DNA from: a virus
IMG/VR virus record: IMGVR_UViG_3300034095_000605
Location: 1-30,664 of that record
Strand: one strand, 5' to 3'
Length of the DNA: 30,664 nucleotides
The notes under the pieces were generated by a model. That model was not told the origin of the DNA and searched no databases. It saw only the letters and a program-made list of their open reading frames with translations. Positions 13,528 to 30,664 of this stretch are shown here, one piece after another. Every line of letters starts with the position of its first letter. Position 1 is the stretch's first letter. A program made the translations under genes and the position numbers.

Positions 13528-14001
13528 TTAGTCCTCTTTTATTTCCATCCATGTATGATCGCCCATGTATTTAACTTGTGTGATATACTCATAAGATTCT
13601 GGTACACCGGTTGACCAATCATTGGGGCCAGTGTGTACTAGCAATGTCTTTTCTTTTCTCTTTTCCCAGACTAGCCAATACGTGTTCCCCATTACAATTT
13701 GAAATTGATATTCTGCGGCATGCACTGCATCTGTTACGTCTAGTCTACGTTTAATATCCAGTGCTTGTTTTTGCAACACATTCACAAGCTCCATGATACG
13801 ATCATATTCTTGCTGGGCATACATCCTAGCATGATTAATCATAATATCTTTTTGCTTAGTAACAGGAATCAAGTCAAACTTTGGACCTCCTGCTTCGGTA
13901 GGATACTCACTCACATTCCTGTTAAAGAAGTGAATTAAGTTTCCAGTGCTAGTACTATCGTAGCTATGCACACCGTTAGCAGAATTATTATCGTTTGGCA
14001 T
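13528..14001 (-). CDS. DUF2452-family protein
   Basis: The 157-aa product contains YPTEAGGPKFDLIPV, QKDIMINHARMYAQQEYDRI, a central coiled helix (LQKQALDIKRRLDVTDAV) and the C-terminal YWLVWEKRKEKTLL...GPNDWSTG. This matches my memory of the DUF2452 family, present in bacteria and large phages, with no known biochemical role. ATG at 14001 is used; a TTG at 14007 is in frame. The gene overlaps the 3' end of the UvdE gene and lacks a good ribosome binding site, so it is probably translated by coupling. Confidence 0.8.
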   Translation of the reverse strand: MPNDNNSANGVHSYDSTSTGNLIHFFNRNVSEYPTEAGGPKFDLIPVTKQKDIMINHARMYAQQEYDRIMELVNVLQKQALDIKRRLDVTDAVHAAEYQFQIVMGNTYWLVWEKRKEKTLLVHTGPNDWSTGVPESYEYITQVKYMGDHTWMEIKED

Positions 14002-15046
14002 GTTCAAGTAGTTTGAAGCTTGCTAAGTTTTTACCCTTAGACTCACACATGATATCAAACTTATCATGGAATGTCAATGCCCAATCGTTCACTGCATCAT
14101 TCCAGAAGTAGTCACTGTGCGCCCGCAACTTCTGCTTGTTATGTCCGCTTTCAATTAGCGCACCATGATCGGGTAATTGTGTAGTGGAATGATCTGTGAG
14201 TACATTTTCGCGGCTAACACTGTAATGCATAGTAGGGCGAACACCACGCCAACTATCAATAACCCGTTGTACAAGCGTATCAGTAGATTGAATATATTCA
14301 CCTTCACGAATCCAGTTGTGATGGATATCGAGTACCGTAGGCACGAGGTCAGATAACGATAAGCAGTCAGATAGTCCATGTGTGTATTCCTCATTTTCTA
14401 GTGTAAGTGTGTTTCGGGCTTCTGGGGACAAACGACCATAAACATCTCTGATACCCTGAGGCCCTTTTCTACCAGAAATGTGTACATTAACTTTGAAGTC
14501 TTGAAATGATTTGCCATAGCCCATCCAACGAACCATGTCACAATGATATTCAAATTCTTCTATACTCTTATTTACTACTTCTTCACGGTCACTCGCTAAA
14601 ACTGTAAATTGTCCGGGGTGCATACTAAGACGAACATCATTGGCTCTAGCTGTTTCACCAATTGGTGCCATCCAGTGTGCTAGTTTGTTTTGAATATCAC
14701 TATCTTGCCAGAAGTCTTTCCAGTCATCATGGGTGTAAAAACTCAGCATGTCACTAGTCAGACGAACCATGCGTAGTTCGGGTTGTAGTGTTGCTACCTT
14801 TTTGACTAGATTATGAGTATGTAGAATGTTGCGTTTGGCAACTTCAATTACCTTTTCTTCTGCTACACTACGCTTTTGCCTTGCGGCCCAAGCCAGAGTA
14901 GTACCGCCTGTATTCAATTCAGGTATGCTGGTAATCTCACCCTTCTTGTTTAGTTCTGAAAATTTGCAAGCAAATCCAATCCGTTTGATATTATTATTTG
15001 TCAAGATAAAAGCCCAAAGCGATAAATAAGATATGTATTGTCGCAT
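13988..15046 (-). CDS. uvsE: UV-damage endonuclease UvdE/UvsE
   Basis: The 352-aa protein follows the UVDE TIM-barrel pattern: KRIGFACKFSEL at the start of the barrel, VRLSMHPGQFTVLAS, KVNVHISGRKG, TLENEEY, PTVLDIHHNW and THYSVSRE-like segments with metal-binding His and Glu. These enzymes nick 5' of UV photoproducts and abasic sites. An upstream ATG at 15046 gives an extra 14-residue leader; a TTG at 15004 would begin directly before the barrel, and the weak promoter at 15037-15065 overlaps the ATG, so the shorter start is possible. The gene is divergent from the packaged-protein operon. Confidence 0.88.
   Translation of the reverse strand: MRQYISYLSLWAFILTNNNIKRIGFACKFSELNKKGEITSIPELNTGGTTLAWAARQKRSVAEEKVIEVAKRNILHTHNLVKKVATLQPELRMVRLTSDMLSFYTHDDWKDFWQDSDIQNKLAHWMAPIGETARANDVRLSMHPGQFTVLASDREEVVNKSIEEFEYHCDMVRWMGYGKSFQDFKVNVHISGRKGPQGIRDVYGRLSPEARNTLTLENEEYTHGLSDCLSLSDLVPTVLDIHHNWIREGEYIQSTDTLVQRVIDSWRGVRPTMHYSVSRENVLTDHSTTQLPDHGALIESGHNKQKLRAHSDYFWNDAVNDWALTFHDKFDIMCESKGKNLASFKLLEHAKR
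15021..15028 (+). promoter_or_regulatory. T4-late-like motif GATAAATA
   Basis: Matches the T4 late box TATAAATA at 7 of 8 positions, 56 bp before the ATG at 15084. The downstream operon looks like packaged virion proteins, for which late expression would be expected. Confidence 0.4.
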
Positions 15047-17853: not shown

Positions 17854-18749
17854 TGAGAGCAACTGAATTTATCGCAGAAGCAATACTAGATGAAGCAGCT
17901 ACTGCTATTGTCTACCATTATGCCGGTGTATCTGCTGCTGCAAAAATTCTAACTACTGGAGTTTTTCAATTAAGTAGTGTCACAGGTAACTCTAGTGAAG
18001 AACAATATGCACCGCCGGGATATCTTTACTTTCTAAGCACAACTCGCAGCAAAGTGGGAGACTATCACCGATATACTGGTAGCAGCGCCGCTATGTTTGT
18101 AATTGATGGGAACTGGTTAAATCGGCATTACAAAACAAAAGCAATTGATTATTGGGAAAGGTCTTGGCAACATAGTAACGGTACTCGTACCAGTGAAAGC
18201 GAAGATAGAGTATTTTCAAAGACACCTGAAATTCCAATTAACGGAGTAATTGCTGTTCATGTTTTGCTCAAAGAACAGAGCGAAAATCGTAGCCCCGAAG
18301 TTAGAACAATTTTAATCACTGCTAAGAAGCAAGGTATACCGGCTTACTTATACACAGATGAGAAGGCATGGCGTTTACAAGATACTCGCAAAGCAGTTAC
18401 ACCCGGTGAAGCTGCTAAATTGCTTAAAGGACAACAACCAAAAGGTTACACCCCAAGTCGTCCGCCGACAATGTACCTTGAACCGTGGGTAGAACTAATA
18501 TATAAAAACAAAAAATCAGATTTAACGCCACGTGCCGAAAAGTTGCGATATGAATTAGTCTACTATGGCAGTAGACGTCCAGATTCCGATAGTAATCTTG
18601 GTGTAGATATGAGCAATGCTCGTAAACCTAATTCTACTGATTATCCAACTGCTGTTAAATTAAATGATTTTATGCGTAAGAATAAGTTACCAGATACAGT
18701 AGCACTTAAAAATATGCTAGTTGATAAATGGGTTAAAATTAAATCTTAA
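17853..18749 (+). CDS. Putative packaged ADP-ribosyltransferase-like protein
   Basis: The 298-aa protein starts MRATEFIAEAILDEA, nearly the same as the T4 internal-protein leader, with two possible gp21 sites (IAE-A at 7-10, LDE-A at 12-15). Downstream motifs fit the ART fold: YHY (21-23), YFLSTTR (59-65, like the S-T-S motif) and a SESEDR (114-119) that could be the catalytic E-x-E loop. In T4 the Alt ADP-ribosyltransferase is packaged and injected to modify host RNA polymerase; an analogous role is inference. The ATG shares a base with the preceding stop (TAATG). The 3' end overlaps the convergent epimerase gene by 11 bp. Confidence 0.55.
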   Translation: MRATEFIAEAILDEAATAIVYHYAGVSAAAKILTTGVFQLSSVTGNSSEEQYAPPGYLYFLSTTRSKVGDYHRYTGSSAAMFVIDGNWLNRHYKTKAIDYWERSWQHSNGTRTSESEDRVFSKTPEIPINGVIAVHVLLKEQSENRSPEVRTILITAKKQGIPAYLYTDEKAWRLQDTRKAVTPGEAAKLLKGQQPKGYTPSRPPTMYLEPWVELIYKNKKSDLTPRAEKLRYELVYYGSRRPDSDSNLGVDMSNARKPNSTDYPTAVKLNDFMRKNKLPDTVALKNMLVDKWVKIKS

Positions 18750-19572
18750 GCAAATCTTCCAAAGAGTATAACTCTTTCATATAGGGTGACACATTATCTA
18801 ATACAGATACTGCTAAGTCACCCTTTCTTCTTGGGCCTATCTTTGTAAGCAAATTAATGTTAGGTATATTGTTTACTTCTTTGAACTTATTAACTATCTC
18901 GGCAACAGTATAACCTACCCCATGACCTAAACATTCTATTTGATTACTTGGCTTCTCAATCGCAGTACATAATGCGTCACATATCTCGTTAACATGAACA
19001 TAATCACGAATGCAGGTTCCATCTCGTGTATCATAATCATTGCCAAAGATGGTAAACTCGCCTCTTTCCTTAGCCGTCATTAGATTATACATTAATCCAT
19101 CAGGATTGGTTGGATCAAACCCATCACTGCCAATAACATTGTAGAATCTAAATATTGTAAAAGGTTTAGGATTATGCTGAGTAAAATACTCACGCACCAC
19201 ATCCTCTGCTGCTCGTTTACTAATGCCATACGCACTAGCACATCCCACTGCTGCGCCAGTGCTGGCAAATATAAAGTTCTTTGTCCGTACCTTATTGATA
19301 ACATTCATTGTACCATTCAAATTAGTGATGTAATAACTTAGTGGGATACGCTCACTTTCACCCACATTGACTAGTGCTGCCAAGTGAATCGTTGCATCAA
19401 ACTCTGTTGGTAATTCAAATAGTCTACGAATATCAACTTGATAGAATTCTTGTAATCCGTCAGCTTGCGGAACATTGATATCTAACCCGTGTACCTCGTA
19501 GTCATTGGCTAGCATCTTAATTAGATGACTACCGATGTAACCTGAACAACCTGTAATTAATATTTTTTTCAT
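18739..19572 (-). CDS. NAD-dependent sugar epimerase/dehydratase (GalE-like)
   Basis: The 277-aa protein has the Rossmann NAD motif GCSGYIGS (8-15), a catalytic Y115-x3-K119 and a C-terminal DGTCIRDYVHV substrate region as in UDP-glucose 4-epimerases. It is shorter than GalE (about 338 aa), mainly at the C-terminus. It is the last gene of the large minus-strand operon and overlaps the glycosyltransferase gene by ATGA, so it probably supplies its nucleotide-sugar donor. Which sugar is not determinable from sequence. Confidence 0.85.
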   Translation of the reverse strand: MKKILITGCSGYIGSHLIKMLANDYEVHGLDINVPQADGLQEFYQVDIRRLFELPTEFDATIHLAALVNVGESERIPLSYYITNLNGTMNVINKVRTKNFIFASTGAAVGCASAYGISKRAAEDVVREYFTQHNPKPFTIFRFYNVIGSDGFDPTNPDGLMYNLMTAKERGEFTIFGNDYDTRDGTCIRDYVHVNEICDALCTAIEKPSNQIECLGHGVGYTVAEIVNKFKEVNNIPNINLLTKIGPRRKGDLAVSVLDNVSPYMKELYSLEDLLKI

Positions 19573-20900
19573 TCAAAACTAAAAAGACTCTCGCCTTCTT
19601 CCTCTGGTTCAAACGACGGGTCCTTACTTAAGTAAGTATCATCGTCCGTGTAAAGTATACGAAACTTATGCTTGTTTGTCAATACTGATTTGATATCGTC
19701 AATACACAATAATCTACGACCTAACTGTGTATTAAAATCACTCAACTTCGTTGTGGTTTCTTCACATATCTTTGCGGTGTTGCTATTAGACTTCTTGCCT
19801 TCAAATTCATTGAAGCAGGTATTCCACTTGTGAAACACACTAGATTCTGTTTGTTGCGTATGTGTTAATGCACCCTTATCATAGTATGATTTAGCTGTGC
19901 TATATTGTTCATATAGTGCTGTAACCAATGCAGCTATGTTCTTCTTGTCAGTTCTATAGAAATAGTCACTACTAAAGTTTTTAGTCCAGCGCATATCATC
20001 TAAACAAACAGTAGGCATCTGTGTCATTTGTTCATAGAAAGCCATACCATAACTCTCAACTGTGCTAGGATTGAATGCAACTCTGCAACTAGTAATGAAG
20101 TCTACCTTCTCTTGTCCAATGATACTCACTCCAATCTTATAATCAGTTATGCCCATTTTCATAAAATGATCCTCAAACTTCTTTGCACCATTTGCATTAG
20201 TCATAACTCGTGCGGGTAGTTTAGTTTGTTCAATCAAGTCTAGGTAAAGTTCTGGATTCTTACCTTCTTCCCATCTACCGATAAACAATACGCCTTCACG
20301 TGGTTTATGATGTTCTTTTAGTAACTCTTGTTCTGTGATTGGAATAGGTAAGTGATATGCATTGGTAAATTGTAACTGATTAAACTTACTCTGTGTGCCA
20401 ATAGTAATGCCGTATAATTCCAATTGCTTACGCATCATATCATTGGTATTATGTAGAAATGGATTCTTTGTATCTTTAAAAATTTGACTTTCTAAATGAG
20501 TATAAGCAATTATCTGTATAACATCCTCTAGTCCCATTGTGCTAGCAACTTGCACAGTCTCATATGTGTTGCATACTAATGCATCATATATGTTATGTTC
20601 CAATGCTTCAATTATACTGTTGCGAAAGTTAGCCATGCGTTCATAGCAGAATGTATCCCCATACATAAAGATATTACTGTGGTCAGTGTACTTTAATGAC
20701 TCTAATGGGGCGATAATATTTACAGGAATAGATTTAACAAACTCTGTGCGTTGAGGTTCTTTGTCTGTAATGATATCAACTTTAATATTATGAATATCCA
20801 TCAATTCACAAAAACTCTTGGCAAACTGCCCTATACCACCATGCGGCACTAGTGTTTGACAGCTTACTAAGAAGCCAATTCGTTTGTTATATGTTCGCAT
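19569..20900 (-). CDS. GT-B fold glycosyltransferase (GT4-like)
   Basis: The 443-aa protein has an N-terminal VPHGGIGQFAKSFCEL loop of GT-B enzymes, LFIGRWEEGKNPELYLDLI (205-224) and the E-x7-E motif STVESYGMAFYEQ (279-291; E282, E290). The C-terminal 60 residues extend beyond the standard fold with a DDIKSVL segment. It is coupled to the epimerase. The acceptor could be phage DNA, a virion protein or a host glycan. Confidence 0.85.
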   Translation of the reverse strand: MRTYNKRIGFLVSCQTLVPHGGIGQFAKSFCELMDIHNIKVDIITDKEPQRTEFVKSIPVNIIAPLESLKYTDHSNIFMYGDTFCYERMANFRNSIIEALEHNIYDALVCNTYETVQVASTMGLEDVIQIIAYTHLESQIFKDTKNPFLHNTNDMMRKQLELYGITIGTQSKFNQLQFTNAYHLPIPITEQELLKEHHKPREGVLFIGRWEEGKNPELYLDLIEQTKLPARVMTNANGAKKFEDHFMKMGITDYKIGVSIIGQEKVDFITSCRVAFNPSTVESYGMAFYEQMTQMPTVCLDDMRWTKNFSSDYFYRTDKKNIAALVTALYEQYSTAKSYYDKGALTHTQQTESSVFHKWNTCFNEFEGKKSNSNTAKICEETTTKLSDFNTQLGRRLLCIDDIKSVLTNKHKFRILYTDDDTYLSKDPSFEPEEEGESLFSFE

Positions 20901-21309: not shown

Positions 21310-21413
21310 TATTTGATTCCCGTATAGTCTCTGTCATTTTCATTTGAACGATAGCACATATAGAAAACCCCTACTATATACCCAAGTAAAAATCCCCAAA
21401 AGAAATCCATCAT
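21309..21413 (-). CDS. Small membrane protein, 34 aa
   Basis: A short gene found by eye: MMDFFWGFLLGYIVGVFYM, one transmembrane helix, followed by a charged tail ending TGIK. The ATG overlaps the QueE stop (ATGA) and its stop overlaps the next GTG start, which supports translation. Function unknown. Confidence 0.6.
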   Translation of the reverse strand: MMDFFWGFLLGYIVGVFYMCYRSNENDRDYTGIK

Positions 21414-22258
21414 GTATTCCATGCGTTTTTGAAAAGGGGCACTTGAAGTCTATCACTATAACGCCAGCCTAACCGCATTGCTTCAAGTGCAACTGTTTTG
21501 GCATTCATGTTATATACACTTTCAACTCCGCCACATGGCATCAAGTAAGCATTACCCCTGAATCCATGAGTACGATATTGATTAACTGCCTCTTGTGCTT
21601 CTTCTACATCTTGTCTATTGGCCACAACAAACTTCAGATATGTATGTCCCACTTGACTATATTCATCAATAATTTCAGGACATATTGCTTCTTCCCACTT
21701 CTCACCACTGATACCAAGTTTAGGACTAACACTAAATGTTATTGCACCTCTGGAACGATTGATAGCCCAATAGTGCAAGTAGGTTTTCAATTGATGTTGC
21801 AACGGTTGAGTGCCATTTGTTTCAAATGTTAGTTCTTGTAAACCTTTCATATTTTCATGTGAAAGTAAATCAACATAACTTCGTTGCCAACCTAGCAAAG
21901 GTTCACCTCCTGTAATAACAAGATGTTCTTCCATCCATCGTTTGTGTGGTAACATATTCATAATACCATCAACGATGCTATCAGTAGTGAGTACTGGGCT
22001 TAAATCCTTGAAACGAGGATCCCAACTTGCATAGCTATCACATCCGGTACTAACTAATGGTAGTTGGGTGTAAGCCGTGTAGTAATGCACACGGGCTGCG
22101 ATATCTTCTACTTCACGACTTAGTTCTCCGCGCGGCATACCGAAGCCCTTGCAAGAAAAATTGCATCCAAATGTTCGTAGGAAAATACTTGGTACTCCCA
22201 TATATCGGCCTTCTCCTTGAATACTATAAAATAGTTCACTTACTTTTAGTTTTGACAT
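21410..22258 (-). CDS. queE: 7-carboxy-7-deazaguanine synthase QueE-like radical SAM enzyme
   Basis: The 282-aa protein matches QueE: LFYSIQGEGRYMGVPSIFLR at the start, LVITGGEPLL, ELTFETNGTQ and FSVSPKL. QueE converts 6-carboxy-tetrahydropterin to 7-carboxy-7-deazaguanine. The usual CX3CX2C cluster motif is split: C32-x3-C36 is followed by GFGMPRGE and an insertion, and the likely third ligand is C73 in TGCDSYASW, aligned with the WCDT-x-YAW block of bacterial QueE. Similar insertions occur in some phage homologues as I recall. It is preceded by a TTGGAATTAA ribosome binding site and coupled to small membrane genes. Confidence 0.88.
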   Translation of the reverse strand: MSKLKVSELFYSIQGEGRYMGVPSIFLRTFGCNFSCKGFGMPRGELSREVEDIAARVHYYTAYTQLPLVSTGCDSYASWDPRFKDLSPVLTTDSIVDGIMNMLPHKRWMEEHLVITGGEPLLGWQRSYVDLLSHENMKGLQELTFETNGTQPLQHQLKTYLHYWAINRSRGAITFSVSPKLGISGEKWEEAICPEIIDEYSQVGHTYLKFVVANRQDVEEAQEAVNQYRTHGFRGNAYLMPCGGVESVYNMNAKTVALEAMRLGWRYSDRLQVPLFKNAWNT

Positions 22259-22420
22259 TTAATTCCAATGGTTAACAACACCTGCTATTATAAACAAGTT
22301 TGTAATTACATAGCATAACACAATACCAGTTCTAATACACGCAATATGGTCAGATTCTGTATCGGTTGTGCCCGCTTTCTCACCCAGGGCTTTTGCCCAT
22401 ATTCTCCAAAATATCTTCAT
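22259..22420 (-). CDS. Small membrane protein, 53 aa
   Basis: A short gene found by eye, with an ATG overlapping the upstream stop (TAATG) and ending just before QueE. It begins MKIFWRIWAKALGEKAG and has a hydrophobic segment from about residue 31 to 49 (TGIVLCYVITNLFIIAGVV) followed by HWN. One transmembrane helix is likely. Similar phage proteins with a final HWN exist in my memory; role unknown. Confidence 0.65.
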   Translation of the reverse strand: MKIFWRIWAKALGEKAGTTDTESDHIACIRTGIVLCYVITNLFIIAGVVNHWN

Positions 22421-22638
22421 TATTTCTTTAATGGCTTTGGTGGCATATCAGGAAATGAACCCCATGCTTGTTTCAATTCGGCTGAAACTCCTTCTGGGCC
22501 ACCCTTATTTACCCACGCACGATTGATAACAACAGTTGGATTACCATTGATTATAACATATCGTGTAAGAAAGTCACTGTAATCATAAGTACCATCTGGT
22601 ACCCATTTAAACATTTTAAAGTCTGATTCAGAACTCAT
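22420..22638 (-). CDS. Phage hypothetical protein, 72 aa
   Basis: The 72-aa protein lies between queD and the 53-aa gene, overlapping queD by ATGA and the next gene by TAATG. It contains FKWVPDGTYDYSDFLTRYVIINGNP and an EGVSAELKQAWGSF helix. No motif is recognised and it is probably soluble. Confidence 0.6.
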   Translation of the reverse strand: MSSESDFKMFKWVPDGTYDYSDFLTRYVIINGNPTVVINRAWVNKGGPEGVSAELKQAWGSFPDMPPKPLKK

Positions 22639-23138
22639 TCAAACAAATCCTCATTCCATTCACGATGCCCCTCTCTAAAAGCCATATTTGCCTGGGTTTC
22701 ACGTACTTCGACCCGATAGCACCACAAACGCTTTGCTTCACTTTCACCCCACATATCAGGAATGTAAACCCCGTTAACATACTTGTATAGCATATCTGCA
22801 AGACTTTCACATCCTAAGTTGGGGAGAATAGTTAATTTCATAATGCCACGATGTTCCGCCTGCACATACCAGTCTAGATGTGGATCTGATTCAGCCACTA
22901 ATGTTGTATGGTCAAATTGACTCTCTAATGTTTGCTTTAGTTCTTTCAAGCCGCCATAATCCGCAGCCCATCGGCGCGCATCTAAGTCGTTTGTTCCAAA
23001 ATAGAACTTCATTGAGAAGCTATAACCATGTAAAAACTGGCAATGGCTGTCGGCTTTGTACTGTCTATAAGCACAGGGGAACGCATCGTGATACTCTTTT
23101 GTGGAAGTCCACTTATATGTTACTGGTAGTTGTGTCAT
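22635..23138 (-). CDS. queD: 6-carboxy-tetrahydropterin synthase QueD-like
   Basis: The 167-aa T-fold protein has SHCQFLHGYSF (31-41), giving the catalytic C33-x3-H37 of QueD, and FDHTTLV (75-81) and a C-terminal VEVRET with the conserved Glu. QueD makes 6-carboxy-5,6,7,8-tetrahydropterin from the FolE product. The second zinc His of the usual HGH is a Tyr (HGY, Y39); I recall a proteobacterial and phage subfamily with HGY. It overlaps the downstream gene by ATGA and has only a weak ribosome binding site. Confidence 0.85.
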   Translation of the reverse strand: MTQLPVTYKWTSTKEYHDAFPCAYRQYKADSHCQFLHGYSFSMKFYFGTNDLDARRWAADYGGLKELKQTLESQFDHTTLVAESDPHLDWYVQAEHRGIMKLTILPNLGCESLADMLYKYVNGVYIPDMWGESEAKRLWCYRVEVRETQANMAFREGHREWNEDLFE

Positions 23139-23156
23139 TTTAACTTCACTATATTT

Positions 23157-23951
23157 TTATTTACCTAAATTCATTTCTTTTCGTATATTAGTAGCACTAA
23201 TTTGGGTAATACTTTCATCAAATGTTTCTTCACCTGATGTATAACCCACACCGCGACCCCATCCAATATGAACAATATTGGGCACAACCTGTATCTCGTA
23301 TTGTCCTTGATATAATGGATCCAAATCTCTACGAATATATTTCTTAACTTCTTCAATTGCAAACGGATTACTATCTTGCCATCCTTGTACATCACGCACT
23401 TGAATAACAACTTGGCCAGTCTTTCCTAGTAGACGTTCAAACAATGCACGATGCCCAGCATGCCATGGTTGCCAACGACCTAACATTTGTACAGTTTCTT
23501 TCTTCCAATCAAAGACTGGTCTACGCTGATTAAGTTTCAAATGAAATCCAATAAACTCGCTCCACTTTTCGGCATCTTGTTCATTGACACGGAAATCATA
23601 TGTTTCTGGTTCAATAAAGGCTTTGTTAGTATCAGCATATCTACCTTCACGGATAGTATCTACCCAAATAGTCCAATCTGCATTGTAGTTATCACGCATT
23701 TCAACTAATGGAGCAACAAAATCAGCAATGACATAATCAGTGTTAGCTTCATCTGCTAGTATTTTCATTCTAATACTTTGACGAATACGACCTGCAGTGC
23801 TAAAGTCCCAGTCATCATATTTTTTTCTGATTTCGTCAGCATTAAACCAAGCAACAGTTTTATGATTATTAATCAGAAACTCTTGCAAGTGTTGTGCCAA
23901 TGTAGTTTTGCCTGCGCCAGGTAAACCCATTATTAATATTCGGTGTGTCAT
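23157..23951 (-). CDS. APS-kinase-like P-loop kinase fused to a nucleotidyltransferase
   Basis: The start at 23951 (TAA-A-ATG after the upstream gene) gives MTHRILIMGLPGAGKTT, with Walker A at residues 9-17; a longer frame to 24026 overlaps the upstream gene. The N-terminal half resembles adenylylsulfate kinases. The C-terminal half is a HxGH nucleotidyltransferase: GRWQPWHAGHRALF (158-171) and ISATNIRKEM (251-260). Such fusions are found in large phages and may activate a sugar, sulfate or nucleotide precursor; the substrate is unknown. Confidence 0.8.
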   Translation of the reverse strand: MTHRILIMGLPGAGKTTLAQHLQEFLINNHKTVAWFNADEIRKKYDDWDFSTAGRIRQSIRMKILADEANTDYVIADFVAPLVEMRDNYNADWTIWVDTIREGRYADTNKAFIEPETYDFRVNEQDAEKWSEFIGFHLKLNQRRPVFDWKKETVQMLGRWQPWHAGHRALFERLLGKTGQVVIQVRDVQGWQDSNPFAIEEVKKYIRRDLDPLYQGQYEIQVVPNIVHIGWGRGVGYTSGEETFDESITQISATNIRKEMNLGK

Positions 23952-23952
23952 T

Positions 23953-24432
23953 TTACTTATCTTTTTGATGTGCGTCCGCAACTCGTTTACGTAGACTTGA
24001 ACTGCTAAAACTGTGATCACGCTCATTAAATACTATTTCAATTCTGCGAGTTTGACAAATATCGCTACCCGTAAAATCCTTATCTTTGTATTCTACACCC
24101 AAGATACGAACATCAATAGGTAGTATGAGTAGAATATCTTCCAAGTCCTTCTCAGTATTGTAAACAACAATTTCATCTACAAAACGGACAGCACTTAAAC
24201 TAATCTGCCTCTCAACAATACTTTGAATAGGAGCATTCTTCTCCGCTCTATCCCATTGTGCGTTATTCTGCAAACCAGCAATAAGATAGTCGCAATGGTT
24301 TTTAGCTTCACTAAGCATTGCAATATGCCCGGCATGTAGAATATCAAATTGGGAGAATACGATACCTATCTTAAGCCCTTGTTGTTTTAGTTCTTTGATT
24401 CTGTTGAATATCATTTTTTTAATGTTCTCCAC
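23953..24432 (-). CDS. Cytidylyltransferase-like protein (RfaE/TagD-type)
   Basis: The 159-aa protein has the nucleotidyltransferase signature GIVFSQFDILHAGHIAML (H33-x-x-H36), and FSSSSLRKR (142-150), like glycerol-3-phosphate cytidylyltransferases and heptose adenylyltransferases. It would activate a phosphorylated sugar or polyol with CTP or ATP. It is next to the kinase-nucleotidyltransferase fusion, which suggests one pathway. It starts inside the end of the 78-aa gene. Confidence 0.82.
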   Translation of the reverse strand: MENIKKMIFNRIKELKQQGLKIGIVFSQFDILHAGHIAMLSEAKNHCDYLIAGLQNNAQWDRAEKNAPIQSIVERQISLSAVRFVDEIVVYNTEKDLEDILLILPIDVRILGVEYKDKDFTGSDICQTRRIEIVFNERDHSFSSSSLRKRVADAHQKDK

Positions 24433-24647
24433 ATCTTTATTTTAGAATGTTCATCAAGAAATTCTTCTTCGCCGGCGAATGTAGGTGAATCAGCCATAAT
24501 CTCATCAAGCAACCACTTGATACGATGTAAGTCTTTTTTGATTTCAAACTGATTGAAACCATCGTTGTAGTTGCTATGCAATTCTATTCCAGCTGTGTAA
24601 ATTTGATGATGAACACCGGTATAGTCCATTGGTTTACGAAATCCCAT
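24411..24647 (-). CDS. Conserved phage hypothetical protein, 78 aa
   Basis: The start at 24647 has GAGGAAAAA before the ATG and lies 14 bp inside the upstream Cys-rich gene. The product contains FEIKKDLHRIKWLLDEIMADSP and GEEEFLDEHSKIKMW, helical and resembling small T4-like phage proteins. Its end overlaps the cytidylyltransferase gene. Function unknown. Confidence 0.65.
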   Translation of the reverse strand: MGFRKPMDYTGVHHQIYTAGIELHSNYNDGFNQFEIKKDLHRIKWLLDEIMADSPTFAGEEEFLDEHSKIKMWRTLKK

Positions 24648-24816
24648 TTTTTCCTCTGCATGTACAGTTACGACCTTGATTACAATTTCCGGTACATACC
24701 GAGTTTGTACTTTTCCAAGCATTAGTAAATATTGATATAAATGCTGCTAGCAGTGGATTTAGTATATATCCAATTATAATTCCCATCATCAAATTGTCTA
24801 TATTGATCCAGTTCAT
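24634..24816 (-). CDS. Small membrane protein with Cys-rich tail
   Basis: The 60-aa protein has a hydrophobic segment at about residues 9-30 (MMGIIIGYILNPLLAAFISIF) and a tail with C-x3-C-x5-C-x-C (SVCTGNCNQGRNCTCRG). One membrane helix with a possible metal- or redox-active cluster is likely. I recall similar CTGNCxQGRxCTC proteins in phages. Its ATG shares a base with the FolE stop (TAATG), so the two are coupled. Confidence 0.65.
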   Translation of the reverse strand: MNWINIDNLMMGIIIGYILNPLLAAFISIFTNAWKSTNSVCTGNCNQGRNCTCRGKNGIS

Positions 24817-25490
24817 TATCGTCCCCTTGCTAGTTGATAAAATTCTGCTCTTGCTGCTGGATCAGACTTAAATCCACCACCTAGCTTACTTGTAACAGTA
24901 CTACTACCTGTATCTTCTACACCACGACTTTTTACACAATAATGTTGTGCGTCAATCATAACTGCAACATCTTCTGTTTCCAAAATGTATTGTAATGCGT
25001 GAAAGATTTGTTCTGTCAATCGTTCTTGTATCTGTGGACGCTTGCTAAAGTATTCTACAATACGATTGATTTTACTCAATCCTAGAACCTTTTGTTTAGG
25101 CACATATGCGACAGTAGCAAGACCGTCAATAACAACAAAGTGATGTTCACAGTTTGATTGTACATTTATATTGCGTTCGCACACCATTTCATTGTACTTC
25201 ATCTTATTGTCAACTGCTGTACATTTAGGGAATGCTTCGTAATCAAGTCCCCAAAAGATTTCGTTGACATACATCTTAGCAACACGCTTGGGTGTTTCCA
25301 TTAAACTATCGTCTGATAAGTCAAGACCTAAGATACGCATGATATGTGCAAAGTGCGCTTCAATATGATCTATCTTTTCTTTACGGTCGTAGTTGTTTGG
25401 GATGGTAGGAGTTTCAACTCCCATCTTAACTAAATGTGCGTGTACTCGTTGACCCAACTCTGGGTCTGTTTTTTGCTTATTATACGACAT
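24816..25490 (-). CDS. folE: GTP cyclohydrolase I
   Basis: The 224-aa protein has the zinc and catalytic motifs of FolE: SNCEHHFVV (112-120), KVLGLSKINRIVEYFSKRPQIQERL, and AQHYCVKSRGV (181-191) with H183 and C185. FolE converts GTP to 7,8-dihydroneopterin triphosphate, the first step of folate and 7-deazaguanine synthesis. Length matches bacterial FolE. It has an AAGGAAGG ribosome binding site and a hairpin in its leader. Here it most likely feeds queD and queE. Confidence 0.93.
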   Translation of the reverse strand: MSYNKQKTDPELGQRVHAHLVKMGVETPTIPNNYDRKEKIDHIEAHFAHIMRILGLDLSDDSLMETPKRVAKMYVNEIFWGLDYEAFPKCTAVDNKMKYNEMVCERNINVQSNCEHHFVVIDGLATVAYVPKQKVLGLSKINRIVEYFSKRPQIQERLTEQIFHALQYILETEDVAVMIDAQHYCVKSRGVEDTGSSTVTSKLGGGFKSDPAARAEFYQLARGR

Positions 25491-25523
25491 AGATAACCTT
25501 CCTTTGTGATGGTTTTTGTTTTG

Positions 25524-25555
25524 AAATGTAAACTACCGTTGTGCAGCTTACATTT
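25524..25555 (-). promoter_or_regulatory. Leader hairpin upstream of folE
   Basis: AAATGTAA and TTACATTT arms (8 bp each) flank a 16-base loop between the histone-like gene stop and the folE ribosome binding site. On the minus strand no U-run follows, so it is more likely a leader or processing element than a terminator. Confidence 0.35.
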
Positions 25556-25568
25556 TATTTATCACAGA

Positions 25569-25757
25569 TTAAGCCTTAGCTTCTTTTCTTGCTGCTTTTT
25601 CAGCGTTAATTTCGTTACGGCGAGCCTTAACCGCTTTAGCTAGTTCACCCAATGCTTTACGGGCACGAGTTCCTGCTGCTGCATTACCTTTTTCAAACTT
25701 TTCATGTTCAGCTTCGTATGCTGCCAATTGTGTTTTAATATCTGCATGTGCTTTCAT
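25569..25757 (-). CDS. Histone H1-like (Hc1-type) DNA-binding protein
   Basis: The 62-aa protein contains EKFEKGNAAAGTRARKAL and a Lys/Arg-rich helix VKARRNEINAEKAARKEAKA, which match the Hc1 histone H1-like family (EKGNKAAGTRARKxL core) of bacteria such as Chlamydia and Bacteroidota. It probably binds DNA non-specifically and could compact phage or host DNA. The ribosome binding site AAAGGAAAC is the same as that of the clamp. It lies inside the DNA modification operon. Confidence 0.75.
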   Translation of the reverse strand: MKAHADIKTQLAAYEAEHEKFEKGNAAAGTRARKALGELAKAVKARRNEINAEKAARKEAKA

Positions 25758-25768
25758 TTTTGTTTCCT

Positions 25769-26944
25769 TTAATATTTACTTTCTCTTGTATGTTTACGAT
25801 AGTCAGTAGTCATTCGTAGCATATCTTCGCCCTTGCCTTCAAGTATATCACATATTCTATCTATAGTGCTATCATTGCGGTTACTTATTTCGCCCATTCT
25901 TGGATGAGGAGACAGCAATAAAGTTTCCAACTTATTCACTGCATCATCAATTGACCAAGGAATGTACAGTCGTTCCGGGTCATTGGCAAAAGTTTCAGGA
26001 AAACTACGATACGCAGGATATAGTACATTGCAGCCAAGAGCATCGGCTTCACTTACAGTATTTGAAACCCAATCTTGTAAAGCACAGTTAAACACAACCC
26101 TACTATCATTAACAATGTTGTAGTATTCGTTCTTTTCTAAATCCTCATAGATTTTTAGTTTCCCTGCAGCTACTAGATTGCGAGCCCGTCGCATGTGGCT
26201 ATCGCTGTTGGATTTCAACTTGGCGCCGCTACATACACAGAATTCTACTTTTGGTAATCCCGGATGACTATTCCATACCTCAATGAGATCCATATAGAAG
26301 TCGGGTTGTTTTTCCATGTCCCACCGGGCAGAGAATACCACACGCATTTTGCGTTCATTGAATGGTTTGATGTTTGCTACACGACTCTGTACTTCTTTTT
26401 TACCAAATGCTAACCCACTAATATTGTAGATTGGAGCCTTCCAACCTGCAATCTTCATGTGCATTACCATTTCCTCATTGGTTGCGAGTACTCCGTCCGC
26501 AAATGAGTCAACCATCTTTTCATAATGCCCCATGAAATCCTGCATACCCCATACATGAACAAAATCGTCAGGATCAATTGACTGAGCAAGACAACGAACA
26601 TAAATCTTAGGCCTGTGAATCCTATCTATTTGTTTAAGAATATAAGGAAGGCTTTCAATCCCGGGCTGAAACATATCTTCAAAATAGATAATATCTTCAT
26701 TGTTCAATTCACCAGCCTTCATCATACGAATTAGATTCATCAATTGACTCATGCCAAAGTATGTACGACCGTGTGCATCTAATACTTGACCTGTTACAAT
26801 TGCTTGGTCATTGTCTAGTGTTTCTCCAGGTACTACCACATAGTCAATACCTCTACGCTTGAATACTGCTTCATTCCAGTCTAGTAACTGGTAGGTGTAA
26901 CGGGCGGTATATTTTTCGAGTCCCAGGTAGTACAGACGCCTCAT
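25769..26944 (-). CDS. Glycosyltransferase, GT4-like
   Basis: The start at 26944 overlaps the upstream stop as ATGA; a longer frame to 26965 adds seven residues. The 391-aa protein begins MRRLYYLGLEKYTARYTYQLL and has VVFSARWDMEKQPDFYMDLI, the linker region of GT-B enzymes, then VSEADALGCNVLYPAY at the donor site. Related phage proteins are annotated as glycosyltransferases, as I recall. The acceptor is unknown; DNA base decoration and virion or envelope glycosylation are both possible. Confidence 0.8.
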   Translation of the reverse strand: MRRLYYLGLEKYTARYTYQLLDWNEAVFKRRGIDYVVVPGETLDNDQAIVTGQVLDAHGRTYFGMSQLMNLIRMMKAGELNNEDIIYFEDMFQPGIESLPYILKQIDRIHRPKIYVRCLAQSIDPDDFVHVWGMQDFMGHYEKMVDSFADGVLATNEEMVMHMKIAGWKAPIYNISGLAFGKKEVQSRVANIKPFNERKMRVVFSARWDMEKQPDFYMDLIEVWNSHPGLPKVEFCVCSGAKLKSNSDSHMRRARNLVAAGKLKIYEDLEKNEYYNIVNDSRVVFNCALQDWVSNTVSEADALGCNVLYPAYRSFPETFANDPERLYIPWSIDDAVNKLETLLLSPHPRMGEISNRNDSTIDRICDILEGKGEDMLRMTTDYRKHTRESKY

Positions 26945-27147
26945 GGACGAACCGTTTCCTGCCACTGATCTCTTGCAACTTTACCAGTTGCAAATTTTGT
27001 ATACTGACGATACACATAACTACGTTGGTCGTAGACTTCTGCTTCGTTGTACTTATAACCAAAATCCACACAGAATGTTAGATATTTCTCTAGGTCCTCA
27101 AAGATTTGAGTAACACGCGGGTTTGATTGAAAAGTTTGTTTTGCCAT
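26941..27147 (-). CDS. Conserved phage hypothetical protein, 68 aa
   Basis: A 68-aa protein with MAKQTFQSNPRVTQIFEDLE and YLTFCVDFGYKYNEAEVY, a recurrent small family in T4-like phages. AAAAGGAATATAAC precedes its ATG. It overlaps the glycosyltransferase by ATGA. Function unknown. Confidence 0.75.
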   Translation of the reverse strand: MAKQTFQSNPRVTQIFEDLEKYLTFCVDFGYKYNEAEVYDQRSYVYRQYTKFATGKVARDQWQETVRP

Positions 27148-27159
27148 GTTATATTCCTT

Positions 27160-27618
27160 TTAAATAGCGAGTGATTGATAAGGGTGAGTTTTACTATAAA
27201 AAATCGTAGCACCATTCTCATTGTCCTCTGAGACTGTGATAGTGATATTACGATTTGGATACCGAGTTGCAATAACCTCATAAAGATCATCACTAATCAT
27301 TTCACAACTTTTATGGTTCAATTCAAGAATATTACCGGCATAGAGATTTTCTAACCAGCGTTTTACTTGAATAAATTCCAAATCACGGTCGTTATGAAAT
27401 ACTTCCATAGTCACTTCAAAATGAAAGATGTGACGATGCAAAGTTCCTAAAAAGCTAACATCATACTCATCACCTGTAGCAAGTGCTGGGTCTGTTGCTG
27501 CTGCCGGGTAACAATGAATACCCTCTTTCTGAAAACGTACAAAAATTGTACGAATTGCTTTTTCTTTAATGCGCTGCCGCTTTTCTGCTTGTGCTTGTAT
27601 CATCTGTTCCATTATCAA
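27160..27618 (-). CDS. Possible second T-fold (QueD-like) protein
   Basis: The 152-aa protein has LHRHIFHFEVTMEVF, comparable to the H-x-H zinc strand of pterin synthases; then LEFIQVKRWLENL, comparable to the DFxxLK strand; and LNHKSCEMISDDLYEVIATRYPNR followed by ITVSEDNENGA, comparable to the LDH...Et/E region. That order fits a T-fold, but the catalytic Cys of QueD is not at the usual place. It lies between dpdA and folE. A conserved phage protein of this type is known to me without function. The QueD relation is a hypothesis. Confidence 0.45.
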   Translation of the reverse strand: MIMEQMIQAQAEKRQRIKEKAIRTIFVRFQKEGIHCYPAAATDPALATGDEYDVSFLGTLHRHIFHFEVTMEVFHNDRDLEFIQVKRWLENLYAGNILELNHKSCEMISDDLYEVIATRYPNRNITITVSEDNENGATIFYSKTHPYQSLAI

Positions 27619-27827
27619 TCTCTTTCGTTATCATAATTAACATGTTCAGGGTAGTCTTCCCATTGCAACTTACTAAGTCGCTGTATGTCATAGTATATCA
27701 TACTATGTTGTGATTGCATAGTCTTAAGGGCATCTTTATCAGAGTTAGTATCCGATTCTGCTGATAAGATTTTTCCAACAAGGTACTTTAACTGTAGTTT
27801 TAATCCTGCAATTTGTTGGCTATACAT
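27615..27827 (-). CDS. Small coiled-coil-like protein, 70 aa
   Basis: The 70-aa protein is mostly helical (IAGLKLQLKYLVGKILSAES, QSQHSMIYYDIQRLSKL) and charged. It starts one base beyond the dpdA stop (27829) and overlaps the T-fold gene by ATGA, so it is coupled to the modification genes. A partner role for DpdA is possible, but nothing in the sequence proves it. Confidence 0.55.
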   Translation of the reverse strand: MYSQQIAGLKLQLKYLVGKILSAESDTNSDKDALKTMQSQHSMIYYDIQRLSKLQWEDYPEHVNYDNERD

Positions 27828-27828
27828 A

Positions 27829-29415
27829 TTACTCCAAAACTAATGCGATAGCATCATCACTATCTTCTAGTTCTTCTAACGGTTCTTCATCTACTGAAAA
27901 CAATTCGTCAAACATACTCATAGCATTTTCAGTTTTCTTACCACTAATACCCTGACTACCTGATTGGAATTGTTTCCAATAACTAGTATGATAATCAATC
28001 AAATCTAGTGATTCTTGTTTAGTTTTCTTTGCAAAGATTTCATTAACTAATTGAGTAAAGAACCTATCACCTTCAAACTTATGTACTAACATCTTTGGAA
28101 CTACCCCTTGGTCATACTGACGATTAGCCTCTTGAACTGCATTCATATGCATCCAAACATTGTGACTTTGTAACAGGGTATAACTTAATGTATCCCAACT
28201 TGTTTTAGTTTCTTTACCGTGCTGTCCCAAGAAACCTACACCACGATAACATAAATCTTTCATAACTAATGCATCAGTTACTGGACTATCTGTAAATAAT
28301 TTATGTATACCATCAGCTAATACAGCATCACGATACTTGCGATTATCATTGGCATAACTTTTCTTTTCAGCAGTCTTTTCCATGCTGTAAGACCATTTTT
28401 TATTATGCTGGATATTAGTATTGAAATATGCCAATCCTTTAGCAGCACTAAAGAATGGGCTGGCACAGTCAAATGTAATTTGTAGTTTTGGATTATGATA
28501 CTTACGTATTGCCTTTTGTATATCAGTAAACAACACAGCATATTCCAAGATACTTGTTCCCAAGCAATGAATCAAATCATGCTTACCTTCTTGTAACAAT
28601 CCATCATGGATAATACCAACTAATCTTCGTAGCATCAAATGTATATCAATCTTGTTCTGTCCACCGAATGCCCAGCCATTGAAATGATTATCAAGATAGA
28701 CATTTGGATCACAATACTTTTTCATTTCTTCATACCAACTATCAGATTGCGTATGATTGCGACCCTGTAATACATTTAATAACTTGCATTTCCCTGAGCG
28801 ATTATTTATAAAGTATTCGTTATTAATATGTGTAGCTGCAATGGCTTCTTCAATAGTACTGATACCGTGTAAACTGTTGCCGTTCTTATCTTTCATTCCA
28901 AATGTAGTCAATGATTGTGAAGGAATATCCAAACACATACTATAATCCATGTATGTATCCATCCAATTTAATACTGCTTTACGCTTTACCATAGCCTTAG
29001 GACAGTTGGGATCTTTCCAGTCAGCTGGCCATTGACCTTTTAGAATCTGAAAGCCACCAGAGTCACCTAACATGAATGTACCTTCTTCACGTTCTCGGAT
29101 GATTGATTCACTTGAATCATCTTTGGTAGTATCCAAGTTAGCATGACCAGCAGAGTATAGTCCCCACTTGTAGTAGTAAAGACCTTCTTTGCTGTTAAGA
29201 AAGTTAAGTTTTTCTACATCACCATTAAAACCGGCAGGGATTCGCGCTTGGTCAAAGTAGTTTTCACCTCTGCGTTGCTTACCCAAGCCAGCAATATAAA
29301 AACTACTGACTGCGGGTAAAAACAATGCCCAATCTGGGTTATGCTTCGCTGATAGATTATCTTGTTTCAATTGATACTCTTGATCATTTCTTGTTAGCTG
29401 GCAACAAGTAAACAT
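27829..29415 (-). CDS. dpdA: DNA 7-deazaguanine transglycosylase DpdA (TGT-like)
   Basis: The 528-aa protein carries the tRNA-guanine transglycosylase catalytic set: MLGDSGGFQ (115-123; D118 equals the base-recognition Asp), CLDIPS (D163), LNVLQGRN (213-220), GWAFGG (247-252) and ITFDCASPF (313-321; D316 as nucleophile). In phages this DpdA group swaps guanine in DNA for a 7-deazaguanine, protecting it from restriction. It overlaps the sliding clamp by 32 bp and lacks a strong Shine-Dalgarno site, so it is probably translated by coupling and its start is slightly uncertain. Residues 40-115 replace the shorter TGT N-terminus. Confidence 0.88.
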   Translation of the reverse strand: MFTCCQLTRNDQEYQLKQDNLSAKHNPDWALFLPAVSSFYIAGLGKQRRGENYFDQARIPAGFNGDVEKLNFLNSKEGLYYYKWGLYSAGHANLDTTKDDSSESIIREREEGTFMLGDSGGFQILKGQWPADWKDPNCPKAMVKRKAVLNWMDTYMDYSMCLDIPSQSLTTFGMKDKNGNSLHGISTIEEAIAATHINNEYFINNRSGKCKLLNVLQGRNHTQSDSWYEEMKKYCDPNVYLDNHFNGWAFGGQNKIDIHLMLRRLVGIIHDGLLQEGKHDLIHCLGTSILEYAVLFTDIQKAIRKYHNPKLQITFDCASPFFSAAKGLAYFNTNIQHNKKWSYSMEKTAEKKSYANDNRKYRDAVLADGIHKLFTDSPVTDALVMKDLCYRGVGFLGQHGKETKTSWDTLSYTLLQSHNVWMHMNAVQEANRQYDQGVVPKMLVHKFEGDRFFTQLVNEIFAKKTKQESLDLIDYHTSYWKQFQSGSQGISGKKTENAMSMFDELFSVDEEPLEELEDSDDAIALVLE

Positions 29416-30115
29416 AAATTGCTATACCACTATCAACTGTGATTTCCGTTGCACCTTGTTCACTAATCTTAACTGTCTTGTCCCCGACTAAATCCATGAT
29501 ACTCAAGAATTCTTTAACGGGCCACTTATGTGTACCAGCTAGTGTTCCGGTAACTGGAGTATTGAATACAAAGTTACCGCTATGTGTTGATGCGTCACCA
29601 AAGTATACTTTCAAATCACTTCCATCAGTTTTGAATACAAAATGATCTTCTTCGCTATTTGCTTGTGATTGCTTCTTAAGTCGTTGAATACCAGCAATTG
29701 TAGGTTCAAATTCAACATTCCACTTAGCACCCTTAAAGGATACACTTTTAACTTTCTCGTCAACTACACTTTTAAGCATAAGACGATAATCATTAACAAA
29801 GTCACCACTCTTTGTTTCAAAGTGAATAGTAGAAGGTACATCTACCCCGTCACGTTGAGTACGAACAACATTAATTTTAGATGTTCCGTCATATTCATCA
29901 AACCCAATAATTGTCTTGAGTTTATTCAAGTTGGGCATTCCGAATATACCAATAAAGTCGGCAATCGGATCTTTGAATGTGCCACTAATAATTACGCTTT
30001 TGTTTTCTGCTACCGCATTGATTACTGTTTCAGTATCAGTACCTGTAACTTTAATCAGTTCAATTGTACCAAGACCAAGAGTATGATCAATTAAGTCTTT
30101 TAAAAAATCTTTCAT
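29384..30115 (-). CDS. 45: Sliding clamp, T4 gp45-type
   Basis: The 243-aa protein fits the T4 gp45 size (228 aa) and two-domain clamp pattern: an N-terminal half with FGMPNLNKLKTIIGF and DYRLMLKSVV, and a C-terminal half with THKWPVKEFLSIMDLVGDKTVKIS and IAIYVYLLPANKK. It is placed right after a T4-type polymerase. The trimeric clamp tethers DNA polymerase and in T4 activates late transcription. It has a consensus promoter and AAAGGAAAC ribosome binding site. The clamp-loader genes (44/62) are not between polymerase and clamp as in T4. Confidence 0.88.
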   Translation of the reverse strand: MKDFLKDLIDHTLGLGTIELIKVTGTDTETVINAVAENKSVIISGTFKDPIADFIGIFGMPNLNKLKTIIGFDEYDGTSKINVVRTQRDGVDVPSTIHFETKSGDFVNDYRLMLKSVVDEKVKSVSFKGAKWNVEFEPTIAGIQRLKKQSQANSEEDHFVFKTDGSDLKVYFGDASTHSGNFVFNTPVTGTLAGTHKWPVKEFLSIMDLVGDKTVKISEQGATEITVDSGIAIYVYLLPANKK

Positions 30116-30202: not shown

Positions 30203-30664
30203 TTACGAAAATGTGAACAAATCATCAAATGTTGAGTTAACATCAGTATTACTTCTGATATCCCAATCCAATACACCAAGTAAGTTGTCTATCTTCTCAT
30301 CTACTAGTGTTGATTCCATTAGTAAATCATCAAATGGCAAGTCTTTGAACCATTGTGGTAATCTTAATTCATCAACCGGATATGCAATACTAGTGAATCC
30401 CAATGCATTATCTTTGAGTTTGCATACGACAATCTTCATACCATCTATAATCTTTTGACTGTAATTATCCCCGTATACTCTACGCAGATAGTTCCAGTTG
30501 ATTGCTGCTCGGGCATGACCAACCCCACACTTGCCCGACTTTTCAAACTCAATAGTATGTTTAGTTAGATTGTTAACACTCTTTGGTGATCCCTTTGTCC
30601 AGCTATCTTGTTCAGACAACTTGTTTTTGAATTCTTTAACCATTTCAATAACTTTGTCCCGCTG
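30203..30664 (-). CDS. 43: DNA polymerase gp43, C-terminal part (5' end outside window)
   Basis: The open frame continues past the right edge; 153 residues are visible. GVGHARAAINWNYLRRVYGD, KIIDGMKIVVCKLKDN, FTSIAYPVDELRLPQWF and the final LLGVLDWDIRSNTDVNSTFDDLF correspond to the thumb and C-terminal end of T4-type family B polymerases, which end in a clamp-interacting tail. It stops just before the clamp promoter. Confidence 0.85.
   Translation of the reverse strand, partial: QRDKVIEMVKEFKNKLSEQDSWTKGSPKSVNNLTKHTIEFEKSGKCGVGHARAAINWNYLRRVYGDNYSQKIIDGMKIVVCKLKDNALGFTSIAYPVDELRLPQWFKDLPFDDLLMESTLVDEKIDNLLGVLDWDIRSNTDVNSTFDDLFTFS

Follow-up and report, generated by a model that had tools for sequence, protein, structure and literature searches.

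A predicted 7-deazaguanine DNA modification operon in a large freshwater phage, with a polymerase-like C-terminal peptide on DpdA and no detected QueC

Genes of the dpdA locus

The DNA analysed here is the entire IMG/VR virus record IMGVR_UViG_3300034095_000605 (30,664 bp; hereafter the window), and the element of interest is a minus-strand operon in which dpdA, the gene of a predicted DNA transglycosylase, lies among replication genes and genes for 7-deazaguanine synthesis. The record carries no end repeats and is therefore probably a fragment; other loci are cited by their contig labels (G and L numbers). Read along the minus strand, the operon begins with the C-terminal part of a DNA polymerase, a sliding-clamp-type protein, DpdA, a small open reading frame (ORF), o152, a further small ORF and the glycosyltransferase GT1. 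These are followed by a small histone-H1-like ORF, FolE, a 103-amino-acid ORF, an RfaE-like nucleotidyltransferase, a fused kinase/nucleotidyltransferase and QueD, and then by QueE, two small ORFs, a second glycosyltransferase (GT2) and an epimerase (Table 1). This gene content is directly established. A sequence-only reading had proposed a 7-deazaguanine operon coupled to the replication clamp at 21410–29415. All of its ORFs were found there on the minus strand and its gene set stood, but the overlap of dpdA with the clamp gene and the completeness of the DpdA catalytic set had been overstated. Four further genes of the operon, for a QueD-superfamily paralogue, a glycosyltransferase and two nucleotidyltransferases, had not been listed in that reading.

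Table 1 Features of the operon and its surroundings in the window.
Feature	Coordinates	Strand	Evidence or remark
Family-B DNA polymerase, C-terminal part	30203..30664	-	PHROG DNA polymerase 6.5e-20; ends ...NSTFDDLFTFS
Sliding-clamp-type protein, 243 aa, directly after polymerase	29384..30115	-	Position, homologue annotation; PHROG match of no assigned function
DpdA, TGT-fold predicted DNA transglycosylase	27829..29415	-	AlphaFold2 model, Foldseek; likely start TTG 29370
DpdA motif GDSGGFQ (TGT Asp102 region, presumed)	29047..29067	-	Conserved, 30 relatives
DpdA motif TFDCASP (TGT nucleophile Asp280 equivalent, presumed)	28456..28476	-	D316 invariant
SMFDELF, clamp-binding-like peptide, DpdA C-terminal tail	27898..27918	-	Matches own polymerase tail
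o152, QueD/PTPS-superfamily paralogue	27160..27618	-	Alignment; hhalign to QueD profile Prob 85.5, E 5.7e-6
GT1, GT-B glycosyltransferase near dpdA/o152	25769..26965	-	Weak Pfam 1.4e-4 in window protein
FolE, GTP cyclohydrolase I	24816..25490	-	Pfam 2.6e-62; NCBIfam 2.5e-99
103-aa protein, conserved in window clade	24411..24722	-	No assigned function
RfaE/HldE-like sugar-phosphate nucleotidyltransferase	23953..24432	-	NCBIfam rfaE_dom_II 3e-19
Fused P-loop kinase + nucleotidyltransferase	23157..24026	-	PHROG kinase 1.3e-47; Pfam APS_kinase 1.3e-8
QueD-like 6-carboxytetrahydropterin synthase (PTPS)	22635..23138	-	Pfam 8.3e-15; PHROG QueD-like 1.4e-35
QueE-like radical SAM, 7-carboxy-7-deazaguanine synthase	21410..22258	-	PHROG 8.9e-52
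GT2, second glycosyltransferase, downstream in window clade	19569..20900	-	Pfam Glycos_transf_1 0.0012; synteny
Nucleotide-sugar epimerase	18739..19572	-	Pfam Epimerase 2.8e-31

Family searches with the 27829–29415 protein gave no match in Pfam, PHROG or NCBIfam, and the assignment to DpdA was settled by a fold search. An AlphaFold2 model built on an alignment of 30 relatives (predicted local distance difference test, pLDDT, 86.6; predicted TM score 0.85) was compared to PDB with Foldseek, and all 14 matches at E ≤ 1e-3 were tRNA-guanine transglycosylases (TGT; best 8.2e-7). By this model the protein has a TGT-type TIM-barrel fold. In hmmsearch against PDB, DpdA, the clamp-type protein and o152 remained without a match and GT1 had insignificant matches only. 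The motifs GDSGGFQ and TFDCASP, which we take to be the equivalents of the TGT Asp102 and nucleophile Asp280 regions, contain D118 and D316, both invariant across the 30 sequences. The zinc site of tRNA TGTs, CxCxxC..H, is not conserved in the alignments of DpdA and its relatives, where C389 is the sole invariant cysteine; the catalytic aspartates of the "whole TGT catalytic set" seen earlier are thus present and its zinc site is not.

The reported overlap of dpdA with the clamp gene requires a start at ATG 29415, which gives 528 amino acids. Starting at TTG 29370, 14 nt past the clamp stop codon, the protein has 513 amino acids, the size of most relatives, whose own starts align with this position. 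The two genes are adjacent, and the overlap is doubtful and probably a matter of start codon choice.

Since the TGT fold is common to tRNA enzymes, DpdA might be a divergent tRNA TGT that modifies tRNA and not DNA. We regard this as very improbable, as dpdA stands amid replication genes, its product carries the polymerase-like clamp peptide described below, and the cysteine set of the tRNA-TGT zinc site is not conserved. 7-Deazaguanine modification of DNA is supported as the function of the operon, with DNA as the predicted substrate. A distant DpdA-like protein of Xanthomonas phage PhiXhv-15 (L224:9635-11341) has a lysine-rich tail where the clamp-type peptide would stand, and is encoded close to a QueD-like gene.

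The 243-amino-acid protein upstream of dpdA was assigned as the sliding clamp because of its position after the polymerase, the annotation of its homologues and the clamp-loader content of related genomes. Homologues in Sinorhizobium phage Phosso (2.5e-71) and in three Escherichia jumbo phages were annotated as sliding clamps by their depositors, and G002, PA5oct and Vibrio phage 2.275.O encode a gp44-type clamp loader while a gp45-family clamp was not found in them.

Matches to Pfam, PHROG and NCBIfam confirmed FolE, QueD and QueE on the same strand as dpdA. The QueD-like protein is of a phage form that keeps the catalytic cysteine and has HGY in place of HGH, most members lacking the first zinc-ligand histidine; PA5oct additionally encodes a canonical HGH QueD copy at 169206-169724. 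QueE keeps the CX3C motif, and an insertion of about 35-40 residues, common to most relatives examined, precedes its third cluster cysteine (CNFSC...STGCDSYASW).

There are 80 close relatives (81-100% identity), and an alignment-based scan added about 80 divergent loci (26-56% identity). The order of the operon is kept in the 80 close relatives, with the later genes present wherever the contig extends far enough. In dozens of further contigs the clamp, dpdA and que genes follow one another as in the window, so that the arrangement is real and not due to chance. Among divergent loci with enough flanking DNA, the clamp gene precedes dpdA by at most four genes in 68 of 77, and both o152 and GT1 are present downstream in 37 of 41. 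Isolated phages that share this DpdA family are the PA5oct group, Phosso and 2.275.O, in all of which the gene is annotated as a hypothetical protein. Single-query scans with the PA5oct or the Vibrio DpdA retrieved zero loci, and the relatives reached by tblastn with the window DpdA exclude 9g and the X1/KVP40 family.

Further proteins were observed in and around these loci. A conserved protein of 170-180 amino acids is encoded between dpdA and o152 in 69 divergent loci (L147-L223) and in PA5oct (252640-253146), and is absent from the window clade. The histone-like ORF (25569-25757) encodes a small H1-like (Hc1) protein (Pfam 3.7e-13). Outside the operon, positions 13988-15046 encode a protein that by eye resembles the UV-damage endonuclease UvdE, with a conserved counterpart in G002.

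A polymerase-like peptide at the C-terminus of DpdA

The AlphaFold2 model shows the C-terminal 43 residues of DpdA as disordered (pLDDT <50) apart from a short helix at 498-505. This tail includes the peptide SMFDELF, which directly matches STFDDLF in the tail of the phage's own polymerase (end STFDDLFTFS). The correspondence holds among close relatives, in which DpdA mostly has [ST]MF[DEN][EQK]LF and the polymerase S[TM]F[DN][DE]LF, and follows the polymerase where its end is unusual. In Vibrio phage 2.275.O, DpdA ends with NNNDLFGW and the polymerase with NNTDLFDW, and in L155 and L200 FFEF terminates both proteins.

The motif F..[LMF]F, scored in the last 60 residues, is present in 53% of 85 DpdAs, compared to 2.5% of shuffled tails and 2.2% of unassigned other proteins; its frequency is 90% in polymerases and 0% in the clamp, o152, GT1, FolE and QueE. 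Eighteen non-redundant DpdA/polymerase pairs (<60% DpdA identity) were then tested for tail similarity, and 10 of them were individually significant at p<0.05 (Fisher p 1e-11). DpdA tails also fit their own polymerase tail better than those of other phages (permutation p 2e-4, 18 pairs), a comparison that is not free of phylogeny since DpdA and polymerase share the ancestry of their phage. Among the 275 proteins of G002 and the 505 of 2.275.O, DpdA is in each case the one most similar to the own polymerase tail. The next-best match is a 529-amino-acid protein of G002 that ends with TQYNELFT (G002:C1:9828-11417), possibly a further clamp client.

Similar ends were found outside this DpdA family. 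A second family occurs in T4-like phages and related myoviruses, and in four of these the ends of DpdA and polymerase are nearly identical: QSLEELFG and SSLESLFG in X1, TTLDELFE and PSLDDLFE in ACP17, NSLDDLFG and SSLEDLFG in Moby, ASLDSFFD and STLDDFFS in BUCT-ZZ01. In five Queuovirinae (9g and four others; L244, L246-L249) dpdA lies next to, or almost next to, the genes for a beta-type clamp and the polymerase, and the DpdA C-termini are LQDLFDE (9g), VMELF (E. coli phage KurtStettler, Bas22), IQELF, QPGLF and IQELF, against a background of 3.4% for LF in the last eight residues. Such ends resemble the pentapeptide that binds the bacterial beta clamp. Four actinobacteriophage DpdAs that were examined have no LF-type tail.

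Since DpdA has no homology to the polymerase, the similarity of the two tails itself calls for a common ligand, for which the clamp is the obvious choice, as for T4 gp43 (C-terminus SLDFLFG). DpdA therefore appears, from its sequence, to dock on the sliding clamp through a polymerase-like tail. Coupling to the clamp, previously read from gene adjacency, is thereby supported by a second line of evidence, with binding as the prediction. It might be argued that the peptide arose by chance or composition, or binds another partner, and that dpdA lies near the clamp merely as part of an early replication operon. Consistent with this, the peptide is not universal (pf16, KVP40, L198, L209 and others are without it) and in PA5oct DpdA is outranked within the proteome in similarity to the polymerase tail. 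We nevertheless consider chance an unlikely explanation, given the enrichment over shuffled tails and other proteins, the clade-specific fit to the own polymerase, including the unusual FFEF and NNxDLFxW, and the reappearance of such tails in further DpdA families and where the clamp is of the beta type. In the literature examined, DpdA is not linked to a clamp.

Absence of QueC and two candidate tailoring enzymes

FolE, QueD and QueE would together make 7-carboxy-7-deazaguanine (CDG), and QueC would be needed for the step to preQ0. As noted in the sequence-only reading, QueC is not seen in the operon, nor is it encoded elsewhere in the window. Because the window is a 30.7-kb fragment, relatives were needed to give this absence meaning. 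No QueC above the curated cut-off was found in 14 long close contigs, in 12 divergent contigs of up to 372 kb, or in the complete genomes of PA5oct, Phosso, ACP17, X1 and BUCT-ZZ01. Partial sub-threshold matches in G003 and X1 (16-17 bits) were rejected as QueC. QueF, for which a search had also been proposed, gave matches in relatives that turned out to be FolE.

One candidate tailoring enzyme is o152. Aligned to a single QueD it was uninformative in hhalign, and a deeper QueD profile was needed (Table 1); judged from this profile match, o152 is a member of the QueD superfamily. Its metal site of three histidines (H..HxH) and a C-terminal glutamate are invariant in 15 divergent sequences, and the QueD catalytic Cys27 is missing, with no conserved cysteine between the first histidine and HxH. 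Together with FolE and other pathway genes, o152 was found in Phosso, ACP17, X1, BUCT-ZZ01, RHph_I1_18, Ahp1, Bakedbeans, PA5oct and Cellulophaga phiST. QueC above the cut-off is missing from all nine, and o152 from all of four QueC-bearing DpdA phages, a separation to which Fisher's test gives a probability of 1 in 715 (9 + 4 genomes, DpdA being located in part of the o152 genomes). Cui et al. reportedly described in 2023 carboxy- or plain 7-deazaguanine in the DNA of Cellulophaga phiST, and o152 may be the CDG decarboxylase (DpdL) predicted in the same work, which is a lead only.

The three choices previously left for the base were CDG, a derivative of it, or a form made with host preQ0. In the last case host QueC would complete the pathway, phage FolE, QueD and QueE would raise its flux, and DpdA would insert preQ0 as in known phages. 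Hosts often encode QueC, and phages with DpdA and without preQ0 genes are known (Hutinet et al. 2019, PMC6884629). However, the phages that have the three earlier steps and consistently no QueC carry o152, which QueC-bearing phages are without, and the QueC-less lineages lie far apart, in phages of Pseudomonas, Sinorhizobium, Acidovorax, Cellulophaga and Synechococcus. The group-wide lack of QueC makes CDG or a derivative likelier than host preQ0, and from gene content we predict one of the former and think a contribution of host QueC improbable.

GT1 belongs to a family in which 10 of 19 members match Pfam PF00534 (Glycos_transf_1; best 7.1e-7). Its homologues lie beside DpdA/o152 in PA5oct, ACP17, X1 and BUCT-ZZ01 and beside o152 and FolE in Phosso, and so span DpdA families. 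A comparison with the T4 alpha-glucosyltransferase (alpha-GT) found no relation, and a paper on a moraphage with many glycosyltransferases proved unrelated. The retention of GT1 with o152 and DpdA across families suggests that the final base is glycosylated or otherwise extended, and with two candidate tailoring enzymes it is presumably not plain CDG.

GT1, the nucleotidyltransferases, GT2 and the epimerase might instead have host surface glycans or virion proteins as their targets and be unconnected with the base. Large phages often carry genes for glycosylation of this kind, and the RfaE-like, kinase, GT2 and epimerase genes were mostly not found across the divergent loci; GT1 and o152, by contrast, accompany the pathway across DpdA families and in unrelated phages. 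We give this alternative serious weight, a little short of an even chance.

Proposed mechanism and relation to known systems

Taken together, we think it probable that the window, from a large freshwater phage, holds a replication-tethered modification operon. CDG would be supplied by FolE, QueD and QueE. TGT-fold DpdA would put CDG or one of its derivatives in the place of guanine in the phage DNA, and would do so while held on the sliding clamp by a C-terminal peptide mimicking the clamp-binding tail of the polymerase; the precursor, or the base once in place, would be modified further by o152 and GT1. We infer the binding, the DNA substrate, the identity of the base and the roles of o152 and GT1. 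With DpdA tethered to the clamp, guanine replacement would follow the replication fork.

Several points weigh against this reading. The identity of the clamp-type protein rests on the three indications given above; its match to gp45 is weak (hhalign E 0.008) and a single-sequence AlphaFold2 prediction gave no fold (pLDDT 37.5). Apart from the named isolates, the long relatives are metagenomic contigs that may be incomplete, and GT1 and o152 could serve another pathway.

If true, the clamp-binding tail would provide a concrete mechanism for genome-wide guanine replacement, in which DpdA travels with the clamp and encounters nascent DNA, and this prediction is testable in isolated phages, some of which infect laboratory E. 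coli. From the QueC-less gene set, with its QueD paralogue and glycosyltransferase, one would expect PA5oct, Phosso, ACP17 and BUCT-ZZ01 to contain a base other than preQ0 or archaeosine, which would have consequences for restriction evasion and sequencing. More tentatively, several DpdA subfamilies may be clamp clients acting behind the fork, and the QueC-less branch may end in a glycosylated 7-deazaguanine; we hold this wider proposal to be doubtful as it stands. Glycosylated 7-deazaguanine would be, to our knowledge, a class of DNA base not previously described.

The 9g-type dpd systems of Queuovirinae, with dG+ and dPreQ0 (PMC6884629), share FolE, QueD, QueE and DpdA with the window, as well as the position of dpdA beside clamp and polymerase genes and the xxLF tail. 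They differ in having QueC or Gat-QueC where seen, a DpdA of another subfamily and a beta-type clamp, and the o152/GT1 module was not seen in them. Cellulophaga phiST likewise combines FolE, QueD and QueE with the lack of QueC, and next to its FolE lies a homologue of o152, but it is a small phage and GT1 was not seen in its locus.

A further close system is that of the jumbo phage PA5oct, whose deazaguanine genes were noted by Iyer et al. 2021 (PMC7824862). It has the same polymerase-clamp-DpdA-GT1-o152-QueE cluster, without the kinase or RfaE-like genes and with FolE and QueD located elsewhere. The passages of that paper on PA5oct describe neither clamp tethering nor the absence of QueC.

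A precedent for a DNA base modifier that docks on a sliding clamp is the T4 alpha-GT, which binds the clamp gp45 (Sommer 2004, confirmed in PMC13216743), although the dominance of alpha-glucosylation was found to have its main cause elsewhere. Unlike DpdA, the T4 enzyme glycosylates 5-hydroxymethylcytosine without base exchange, and its own C-terminus shows no such peptide. 7-Deazaguanine modification of DNA is thus already known, and what the present locus adds is a polymerase-like clamp peptide on DpdA.

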